40,602 nt of DNA, taken from NCBI GenBank assembly GCA_001464625.1, contig LNFJ01000146.1, positions 1-40,602 on the forward strand. The letters run 5' to 3'. A model generated the notes under the pieces. It made no database searches. It was not told the DNA's origin and was given only the letters and a program-made list of their open reading frames with translations. The position numbers and the translations under genes were made by a program. The stretch comes from Bacteroidia bacterium Ga0077558 (lineage in GTDB: Bacteria; Bacteroidota; Bacteroidia; Chitinophagales; Chitinophagaceae). Shown one piece after another: positions 7,959 through 18,944 of this stretch (its first letter is position 1; each line of letters begins with the position of its first letter).

Positions 7959-8020
7959 TTCCCTAAGCATCGTTCCTTGCGTCGTACACTTCATCTTTCT
8001 GCCTGCCGGCAAAGGCAGGT
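7959..8020. repeat. Dispersed repeat core plus GCCTGCCGGC palindrome (copy 1)
   Basis: The core at 7959-8000 (GCATCGTTCCTTGCGTCG and flanks, ending CTTCATC) matches, with few differences over about 41 bases, the reverse complement of 33794-33834 between the clpP genes. It runs directly into a palindrome (7999-8020, CTGCCT..AGGCAG) related to the one inside pabB. No coding frame covers it. Confidence 0.7.
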
Positions 8021-16596: not shown

Positions 16597-17634
16597 TTGA
16601 GAATACTAAAAAAAATATCATTCTCGCTATTTCTTGTTCTGCTGGTAACAAATCTGTTAGCCGGGCAGCAACAAGCTATTGACACAACCGTAAAGAAGGA
16701 TTCAGTTAAACTAAATGCTATTTCTGCAACTGATCCAAAGCTTGGATTTAAAAATTTATTCGCCACTGCCATTACGGGTGATGGATTAAATGGAGCAAGA
16801 TTAAATCCGATGGCCGTAAGTTTTGTGGAGAGTTATATTGCCAAAAATAAAAAGGGAATGCTGGCGATGAAGGATTGGGCTTCTCCCTATTTTGATATGA
16901 TGGATGCCATATTGATGCAACATGGTGTGCCCAAAGAAATGAAGTATTTGGCGGTGATCGAATCCGGGCTTCGATACAATGCCATTTCCTGGGCCGGAGC
17001 TGTTGGCCCATGGGCTTTTATGCCAGCAGCAGCAAAAGAATATGGATTAAAAGTTACAAAGCACTACGACGAAAGATTGGATTATTATAAAAGCACTCAT
17101 GCGGCAGCAAGTCTTCTTACAGATTTGTATAGAAAATATGGCGACTGGTTGCTGGTAGTAGCAGCTTATAACGGCGGGCCCGGCAATGTAAATAAAGCTA
17201 TTAAAAGAAGTGGTGGCAGTAAGGATTTCTGGACCTTACAATATCACCTTCCAAATGAATCAATGAACCATGTAAAAAAATTCATTGCTACCCATTATAT
17301 TTTTGAAGGTGAAGGTGGTATTACTACCATTACAAAAAGTGAAGTAAAAGATTTGCTTGATGGAAGTCTTCAGTTGAAAGAAGATGAAATGGCTAATTCA
17401 ACAGCCTATAACATTACAGGACGATTTAGTTCTACAGTCATCATTAAGCATACAGAAATTGATGTAGCAACTTTTAATAAGTATAACCCAGGCTTCGACA
17501 ATGAAATAGCATTGAATGGAAAATACAACCTACGTTTGCCCACACAGAAGATGAATATTTTTGTTGCTAAAAGATACCAGATATTGGATGAGAGTATTCA
17601 ACAGTTACTAAAATCTTCAAGCGGAATTCAATAG
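16597..17634 (+). CDS. Lytic transglycosylase (MltD-like)
   Basis: Cleaves the glycan strands of peptidoglycan to form 1,6-anhydro-muropeptides. The 345-aa product begins with a signal peptide (MRILKKISFSLFLVLLVTNLLAG), then an SLT domain with catalytic Glu122 (AVIESGLRYNAIS), GAVGPWAFMP and AAYNGGPGNV (189-197). GPWAFMPAAA replaces the usual GlWQFMPxTA. The C-terminal part (about 270-335) resembles a degenerate LysM cell-wall-binding domain. No ATG precedes the signal peptide, so TTG 16597 is the likely start. The last seven bases overlap the end of convergent pabB. Confidence 0.88.
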   Translation: MRILKKISFSLFLVLLVTNLLAGQQQAIDTTVKKDSVKLNAISATDPKLGFKNLFATAITGDGLNGARLNPMAVSFVESYIAKNKKGMLAMKDWASPYFDMMDAILMQHGVPKEMKYLAVIESGLRYNAISWAGAVGPWAFMPAAAKEYGLKVTKHYDERLDYYKSTHAAASLLTDLYRKYGDWLLVVAAYNGGPGNVNKAIKRSGGSKDFWTLQYHLPNESMNHVKKFIATHYIFEGEGGITTITKSEVKDLLDGSLQLKEDEMANSTAYNITGRFSSTVIIKHTEIDVATFNKYNPGFDNEIALNGKYNLRLPTQKMNIFVAKRYQILDESIQQLLKSSSGIQ

Positions 17635-18944
17635 TTAGCTTCTAACACCCTTTTTATTGCCGCCGCTTTTAATAAACATTCTTCCCATTCCATTTCAGGA
17701 TCGCTGTAAAAAGTAATACCAGAACCAGCTTTATAAGAAAGATAAGAGGTAGCTGCGTTATACATAATACTTCTTATCACTACATTAAAATCAAAACCTG
17801 CCTGTCCGGTAGGCAGGTCACCTTCGGGAGAAATATAACCTACGGCGCCTGAAAAAATGCCCCGCTTCGTAGTTTCGTACTGTTCAATTAAGTCCATAAC
17901 TTTTTTCTTTGGCGCACCTGTCATGGATCCCATAGGAAAAGTTGCTCGTATTATTTCACTAAAAGAAATATCATCCGTTAACTCACCACTGATCGTTGAG
18001 ATCATTTGATGTACTTGCGGGAAAGAATAAATACCATACAACTCATCAACATTTACGGTTCCTTCTTTACAAATTTTGGCGAGGTCATTTCGTACCAGGT
18101 CAACTACCATTACATTCTCTGATCGGTCTTTAGCACTATGATACAGATCGAGTTTGTTCAGCTCATCCAATTCTGTATTTAATAATTCTCTTTTGGACGT
18201 TCCTTTAATGGGTTGCGATAAAATGCTGTTACCTTGCTTTTTTAAAAAACGTTCGGGGCTGGCACAGATCAGCCATTGGTCACTCACTCTGTATAATGCT
18301 GAAAAAGGATTAGGAGATTCAATGCTTAATCTTTTATAAATATTAAGCGGATCAATAGTACAATCTTCGGCAAAAAAATCCTGGCAAAAATTTATTTCAT
18401 AACAATCACCCCGAAGAATATGTTCTTTCAATTTCTTAATGACTGTTTTATATTCTTCACGGGAAAGGCTGCTTCTTATTGCTGGTGAAGTTGTTTTTTT
18501 GTTATTCCAACTGCCTGCATTATTAATCTCGTCAAAAACAAGTTTTGGATTTGCTCCTTCAATAATTATTTCTTGTTGTGATAATCGAATTAGAAATTCA
18601 GGTTCAAAAAAGAAAAGGTCAGGAAACCCTATTGCGTCAACATGGGAAGAATGCACTTCTTCGATTTCATTTTTCAGATCATACCCCAAATGGCCGAAAA
18701 GCCAACTTTGGCTATTCCCAATAAATTCTTGTAATTGCTCCAACGCATTGCCGGCATTTGCTTTGAGCTGGCGTTTTACTCCCGCCCCCAGCAAACATTC
18801 TTGTGAATGTGGCAGTATTTGGTATTGGTGATTATCCAAAAAACAAAAAGTGTCGAACCGTTGTACCCAGTTCAACACTTTTTGTTTGGTCTCTATAAAG
18901 TTGCTTATCGGGTAAGTAACTTTTGTGGTAGAAGTTTGCGTCAA
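17628..18944 (-). CDS. pabB: Aminodeoxychorismate synthase component I
   Basis: Makes 4-amino-4-deoxychorismate from chorismate and ammonia, the first step to p-aminobenzoate and folate. The 438-aa protein has the chorismate-binding domain (about 150-438). PIKGT with Lys247 (SQPIKGTSKR) identifies PabB; anthranilate synthase has PIAGT. DRSENVMVVDLVRNDL, FPMGSMTGAPK and RGIFSGAVGY are intact. Odd: residues 377-383 (LPTGQAG) lie between GD and FDFNVV, where relatives read GD(F/M)DFNVV; the codons are a 21-base part of a G/C palindrome (17796-17818). The frame stays open. The gene is last in the purA, acidic protein, pabB series and overlaps the transglycosylase tail-to-tail. Confidence 0.94.
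   Translation of the reverse strand: MTQTSTTKVTYPISNFIETKQKVLNWVQRFDTFCFLDNHQYQILPHSQECLLGAGVKRQLKANAGNALEQLQEFIGNSQSWLFGHLGYDLKNEIEEVHSSHVDAIGFPDLFFFEPEFLIRLSQQEIIIEGANPKLVFDEINNAGSWNNKKTTSPAIRSSLSREEYKTVIKKLKEHILRGDCYEINFCQDFFAEDCTIDPLNIYKRLSIESPNPFSALYRVSDQWLICASPERFLKKQGNSILSQPIKGTSKRELLNTELDELNKLDLYHSAKDRSENVMVVDLVRNDLAKICKEGTVNVDELYGIYSFPQVHQMISTISGELTDDISFSEIIRATFPMGSMTGAPKKKVMDLIEQYETTKRGIFSGAVGYISPEGDLPTGQAGFDFNVVIRSIMYNAATSYLSYKAGSGITFYSDPEMEWEECLLKAAAIKRVLEANY
17796..17818. repeat. Palindromic repeat inserted in frame in pabB
   Basis: ACCTGCCT (17796-17803) and AGGCAGGT (17811-17818) are perfect inverted arms around a GTCCGGT loop. A related copy (CTGCCT, GCCGGC centre, AGGCAG) lies in the DUF2795-fabI gap at 7999-8020. 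In pabB it is read as LPTGQAG. Confidence 0.8.

Follow-up and report, generated by a model that had tools for sequence, protein, structure and literature searches.

A 21-bp palindrome lying in frame in pabB is probably a copy of a tiny mobile element

Palindromic repeats inside bacterial genes are already known. Very small mobile repeats of cyanobacteria were reportedly described by Elhai et al. in 2008 and, going by the title of that report alone, resemble the element considered here in being tiny repeats described as mobile. The further systems named below are compared on the accessible portions of the cited papers. Rickettsia palindromic elements (RPEs) are palindromic repeats that lie in frame inside unrelated genes (PMC3733652, PMC10969869), and as first reported in Rickettsia they are about 150 bp long (PMC10969869). 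The RU small mobile sequences of enterobacteria, at 103-168 bp, are likewise found inside genes (PMC2759123). REPs tagged with GTAG or CGTC are palindromes of 20-40 bp, some of them intragenic, and in recB of two Xanthomonas species they occupy about the same site (PMC3733652). Among the RAYT (tnpAREP) transposases, subclass 2.6 is found mostly in Bacteroidetes, and in subclass 2.4 the gene for the transposase often has REPs within it (PMC6006769). Open-licence literature on RAYTs or palindromes in Bacteroidetes yielded PMC3733652 and PMC6006769 alone, and in-frame palindromes in Bacteroidetes were not found there. No description of the present element turned up: neither the tag peptides nor two 20-21-mers had a match in open-licence full texts, a collection outside which most subscription papers lie.

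We analyzed a window of 40,602 nucleotides (the whole stretch of DNA under study, contig LNFJ01000146.1 of Bacteroidia bacterium Ga0077558) that carries such a palindrome within pabB. Like an RPE, this palindrome lies in frame in otherwise conserved genes. However, it comprises 21 bp rather than the roughly 150 bp given in the RPE reports, adds seven residues, is read mostly in one frame, and appears in records whose titles name several phyla. It is also far shorter than the 103-168 bp of RU sequences, a comparison that rests on their description in PMC2759123. The REPs, as described in the parts of the literature cited above, end in a tetranucleotide and are mainly extragenic, whereas this element has neither GTAG nor CGTC at its palindrome ends and, in its 21-bp form, is genic in nine of ten copies in its own genome. 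Recurrence at the same site is frequent here, with tags in 18 of 120 listed PurH proteins. As in RAYT subclass 2.4, two RAYT genes in our material contain an internal copy, of 20 bp; unlike what is described for subclasses 2.4 and 2.6, both copies break the reading frame, and 27 of 30 RAYT loci have no palindrome. What is new is therefore not the presence of palindromes in genes but the 21-bp size, the near-single frame within the genus, the recurrence at the same point, and the multi-phylum titles.

Table 1. Coordinates of the pabB insertion and of related features in the window.
Feature	Position	Strand	Basis or remark
21-bp palindromic insert CCTGCCTACCGGACAGGCAGG (coding strand)	17797..17817	-	Adds LPTGQAG to PabB; 27 of 28 site-covering relatives without insert
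Palindrome plus flanking purine/pyrimidine pair	17796..17818	.	Perfect 8-bp arms ACCTGCCT/AGGCAGGT; hairpin fold
Split Asp codon	First two bases GA 17818..17819, third base T 17796	-	Codon comparison with relatives
pabB downstream part (C-terminal FDFNVVIRS... to stop)	17628..17795	-	ORF; Pfam Chorismate_bind on both sides of the insert
pabB upstream part (aminodeoxychorismate synthase component I)	17820..18944	-	ORF, Pfam, comparison with solved PabB
Related 18-bp palindrome CCTGCCGGCAAAGGCAGG	8002..8019	.	Intergenic; 3' flank TTCGCTAC common to three other copies outside long genes

The pabB open reading frame (17628-18944, minus strand) encodes 438 amino acids, and the window's top-strand sequence at 17797-17817 is CCTGCCTGTCCGGTAGGCAGG. 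A perfect palindrome with 8-bp arms had been reported there from the sequence alone, and it is indeed present, in frame, at 17796-17818; its 21 bases keep the reading frame of pabB, as had been claimed. As a single strand, a 35-nucleotide segment around the palindrome forms a hairpin with a folding energy of -8.4 kcal/mol (z -4.0). When up to three mismatches are allowed, the 21-mer has one match in the window compared with none in 100 shuffled versions. The insertion point falls between GGTGA and TTTTGAT, such that the Asp codon is split after GA and becomes GAC...GGT. The protein thereby gains LPTGQAG between EGD and FDFNVV. The sequence-only reading had described this peptide as taking the place of residues in the PabB core; the seven extra residues are there, but none is replaced, and it is the Asp codon that has been split. 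In the predicted structure of PabB the tag lies between the strands at 365-372 and 383-389 (mean pLDDT 58.9, low confidence), a placement that hints at a hairpin turn.

To place the insert among relatives, we searched 58 genomes including the window's own, found a PabB-like match in 46, and fetched 30 loci, 29 of which cover the site. Apart from the window gene, 27 of the 28 covering relatives have an empty site; the position of the split codon reads GAY in 22 of them (GAT in 19) and AAT in 5. In the sole tagged relative (L029, from genome G032) the peptide is LPAGQAG, and its position is exactly that of the window's tag. The seven residues are also absent from the solved PabB structure 3h9m. 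Among the 120 nearest PabB proteins listed, 5 are tagged at the site (including that of the window) and 115 are untagged, so the proposal that related PabB proteins would lack these residues is borne out. Even close neighbors differ, as P0002 is tagged and P0003 untagged, each being 90% identical to the window protein. A tree of 149 PabB sequences from which the tag had been removed, some of them from the same genome and one (L038) not reaching the site, has six tagged tips that need six changes; one of these falls on a node with support 0.34, and five may suffice. Separately, a TrpE-like chorismate enzyme in genome G028 (L151:989-2452), itself a relative of PabB, is also tagged; it has LPVRQAG close to where its N-terminal domain ends.

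The window's own genome (G000; 4.08 Mb, 93% complete) holds 54 forward matches to CCTGCC and GGCAGG spaced by 2-12 nucleotides, with none for the reversed control. After overlaps were merged, 37 sites were read; one further CCTGCC...GGCAGG site lies outside this set. Ten of the sites are 21-bp copies (reversed control 0), a count from which five places with three mismatches to the 21-mer were left out, and nine of the ten lie inside genes. The sequence-only reading had called for repeats of the palindrome elsewhere in the genome, and these copies supply them. Open frames of at least 200 amino acids hold 9 of the 10 21-bp copies versus 4 of the 27 sites of other lengths (p 5e-5), the remaining 23 falling outside such frames. 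By Pfam, the nine tagged genes encode PabB, an asparaginase, a DUF2851 protein, PurH, an alpha-2-macroglobulin, a polyphosphate kinase, an FAD-dependent protein, a DsbH-like protein, and a PHP/helix-hairpin-helix protein. All nine copies are read in one frame, which yields [N/D]LPxxQAG. The remark, made from the sequence alone, that peptides of the LPTGQAG type occur in other proteins thus proved correct for nine of nine in-gene copies, and many more are found in other genomes.

Sites of other lengths differ in placement. The window contains two CCTGCC...GGCAGG sites where 0.02 would be expected, and the second of these, a related intergenic palindrome that had been placed near 7999-8020, does exist, at 8002-8019. 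Along with those at L055, L057, and L080, it belongs to a set of 16-24 bp palindromes outside long genes that have the 3' flank TTCGCTAC in common, and this shared flank is suggestive of a longer version of the element, distinct from the 21-bp form in genes. Copies of 20 bp also occur inside genes. Those in two RAYT transposase genes (L322:1919-1938 in G000 and L316:1428-1447 in G033) shift the frame, whereas the frame stays open around the copies in genes for a leucyl-tRNA synthetase and a Vps10-like protein.

Across the genus, the 21-bp pattern occurs at 108 places in 14 of 42 genomes (reversed control 0), and we read 52 copies, namely the 10 of the window's genome and 42 of the 98 elsewhere. 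The two main variants of the palindrome offer five or six open readings. Nevertheless, among 37 copies in open frames of at least 180 amino acids, frames 2, 1, and 0 are used 31, 4, and 2 times. When we kept the 30 copies for which Pfam or orthology confirmed the protein and the tag lies inside it, the counts became 28, 2, and 0 (p 9e-12 against an expectation of one third). Note that the seven copies dropped before this count (frames 2/1/0 = 3/2/2) are two in L122 and one each in L129, L131, and L146, where the tag precedes the domain near the N-terminal end, and those in L124 and L147, which have no Pfam family; L114, L134, and L029 entered the count through orthology to L054, L117, and the window gene. 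Confirmed tagged proteins include methionyl-tRNA synthetase, DNA primase, 2-oxoglutarate dehydrogenase E1, YebC, PdxJ, MurB, and BshC.

The codon that is split obeys a simple rule within the genus. All 28 frame-2 copies interrupt an RRY codon (17 Asn, 8 Asp, 2 Ser, 1 Gly), versus a share of 17.6% RRY in the same genes, and a purine before and a pyrimidine after the insertion point are near-fixed in genus copies. The flanks of 28 genic copies (frame 2, open frames of at least 250 amino acids) and of 14 copies outside long frames show no fixed tetranucleotide, and on these copies a conserved tetranucleotide target was rejected.

PurH provides a second site of recurrence. Among the 120 nearest proteins listed, 18 carry an insert of six or seven residues after IAKYFN (IANYFN in P0256) and 102 do not; 11 of the 18 inserts fit LPxxQAG by pattern and 7 are altered. 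The tag varies among PurH copies (LPTGQAG, LPAGQAG, LPDRQAG, and altered forms), as it does among copies genome-wide. On the PurH tree the tags need 17 changes, and 500 shuffles of the labels give a mean of 17.0 (range 13-18); therefore, the presence of the tag follows no clade. Insertion at the same nucleotide was seen in the two purH genes (from G000 and G058) and the two pabB genes that were read as DNA. In the nearest untagged genome (G061) the empty purH site reads TTCAA followed at the insertion point by TTCCTCTGAG, also written TTCAA followed by TTCCTCTGAGTCATTATTC, and the filled G000 gene differs from it by exactly 21 bp at that point, which is an insertion without target duplication. 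A separate set of inserts lies at another point of PurH, after consensus residue 256 (P0241-P0360); these are rich in Pro and Ser, such as ASPNPSQGGALDSG..., are unrelated to the palindrome tag, and perhaps come from another repeat family.

Identical copies occupy unrelated genes of one genome, and distant PurH and PabB proteins are tagged at the same residue. We conclude that pabB has received the 21-bp palindrome by in-frame insertion, and that this palindrome is probably a copy of a tiny mobile element that is inserted exactly and apparently without target duplication. Because the pabB and purH spots are empty in most relatives, the element is likely mobile and has probably entered the same spots many separate times. 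The original proposal of a short palindromic mobile element that enters genes and leaves a peptide tag is therefore supported, with mobility inferred from the empty sites and the scatter of tags. The scatter in PurH and PabB would reflect independent insertion, not loss or allele exchange. We nevertheless considered that the tag entered each gene a single time and then spread between species by short-tract homologous recombination. Such spread would account for tags at one and the same residue in lineages far apart, conservation immediately around both sites is high enough to allow recombination over short tracts, and the upstream flank of purH fails to separate lineages (of its 30 bases in G000, 27 match G061 and 26 match G058). 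The downstream flank is harder to reconcile with such an exchange: the 30 bases that follow the insert in G000 match the untagged G061 at 30 of 30 positions and the tagged G058 at 23, and because of this difference the G058 tag is, judged from these bases, likely a separate event. In pabB, G000 and G032 show synonymous differences on both sides of the insert within 27 bases. Moreover, the PurH tag itself varies as the genome-wide copies do, and an insertion mechanism would still be required for many different genes, and we regard such spread as improbable. Still less probable, and to our minds very unlikely, is an ancient single insertion in pabB and purH with later exact excision in most lineages. 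Some PurH inserts do look old and altered, and for Pseudomonas fluorescens a study of sequencing reads concluded that REP doublets are excised (PMC3116915). However, the same study looked for excised REP singlets and found none. The tag is the minority state, being absent from 102 of 120 listed PurH and 143 of 149 PabB sequences (including L038, which stops short of the site), and a single gain therefore needs many losses; furthermore, the tagged PurH P0252 is at a distance of only 0.016 from an untagged neighbor. Both exchange and repeated loss agree less well than insertion with the downstream flanks and with the tag being the minority state.

A further possibility is that the palindrome is an ordinary REP element moved by a resident RAYT transposase. 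Of the 42 genus genomes, 20 have a match to RAYT (NF047646), which exceeds the curated cut-off in 7; among the 14 that carry the 21-mer, 12 have such a match. Counting G019 (best match E 2.5e-5) as without RAYT, the 21-mer occurs in 12 of 19 genomes with RAYT versus 2 of 23 without (p 3e-4), a contrast confounded by small genomes that have neither. Insertion without target duplication is what HUH single-strand transposases would leave. However, the palindrome lacks the GTAG or CGTC tag of REPs, its 21-bp form resides mainly inside genes, and two copy-bearing genomes (G061 and G021) have no RAYT match. The palindrome lies within about 1.5 kb at 3 of 30 RAYT loci, breaking the RAYT gene in two of the three; no pair of palindromes flanks a RAYT gene at any of the 30 loci, and none lies inside the 120 RAYT homologs listed. 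We therefore consider the REP reading doubtful, though somewhat less so than spread by recombination, and the data hint at a link between the 21-bp element and RAYT transposases. RAYT as the proven mover was set aside on the 3 of 30 loci, the 0 of 120 listed homologs, and the two copy-bearing genomes without a match.

HUH single-strand transposases of the IS200/IS605 group insert hairpin DNA without target duplication, and by analogy a route of this type is likely in kind for the 21-bp element. Under the preferred reading of repeated independent insertion, a trans-acting HUH transposase (RAYT-like) or another transposase would move the element as a single-stranded hairpin. Putative selection would then remove copies in other frames and those whose lengths are not multiples of three, and the peptide left behind would be the loop-compatible [N/D/S/G]LPxxQAG in surface turns.

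The element is not confined to the genus. In a survey of the phylum, 32 of 395 genomes from many families have at least one match (reversed control 0), and one genome (G356) stands far above the rest: the 21-bp pattern matches 25 times forward and 33 times in reverse, where a single site may be counted on both strands. Among genomes of named species, the exact 21-mer is present in at least 116 stretches, and we read 80 loci with 88 elements. Titles among the 80 listed name Bacteroidota, Patescibacteria candidate phyla, Omnitrophota, Nitrospirae, and Elusimicrobia; most of the listed records are binned metagenome assemblies, and the reach beyond Bacteroidota could partly reflect misplaced contigs. 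The isolates we recognized in the list (Arenibacter, Muricauda, Salegentibacter, and Pleomorphovibrio) are Bacteroidota. For named genomes outside the genus we counted copies in open frames of at least 230 amino acids with 30 amino acids on each side, leaving out four loci that repeat G022 and G025 records, and the 32 copies use frames 2, 0, and 1 in 21, 9, and 2 cases (p 2e-4), a bias weaker than that in the genus. All 20 of the frame-2 proteins have a Pfam match, and so do the 11 others except L193, although for L215 and L239 the matches are only weak. The RRY rule fails outside the genus, for example at L200, L196, and L243, and the codon rule is therefore, as far as seen, a property of the genus. 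An NAD-dependent DNA ligase in a Moraniibacteriota bin (L255:882-3275) bears two tags, LPRRQAG and LPTGQAG. Also, 25 stretches of viral contigs (L358-L382) contain the exact 21-mer, several of them in one contig; such contigs are possibly vehicles, or host sequence binned as viral.

A bolder version of these ideas, which we hold to be unlikely, is that some cellular or mobile system is dedicated to writing the 21-bp tag again and again, and perhaps to erasing it, at chosen Asn/Asp codons where conserved enzymes form turns. The element would then perhaps be the smallest mobile element known, with a sequence shaped to read as a harmless single-frame peptide, and the identical 21-mer would have spread across several phyla.

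If our preferred reading is true, an element that to our knowledge ranks among the smallest mobile ones repeatedly adds nearly identical sets of seven residues to enzymes, PabB, PurH, methionyl-tRNA synthetase, and DNA primase among them. The PurH and PabB sites, filled and empty in close relatives, would therefore offer natural replicates for studying the rate of insertion, the choice of target, and the tolerance of proteins for the added residues. This reading would also explain the LPxGQAG peptide, which could otherwise be mistaken for a protein motif, and it would bear on the annotation and alignment of proteins from Bacteroidota and perhaps other groups.
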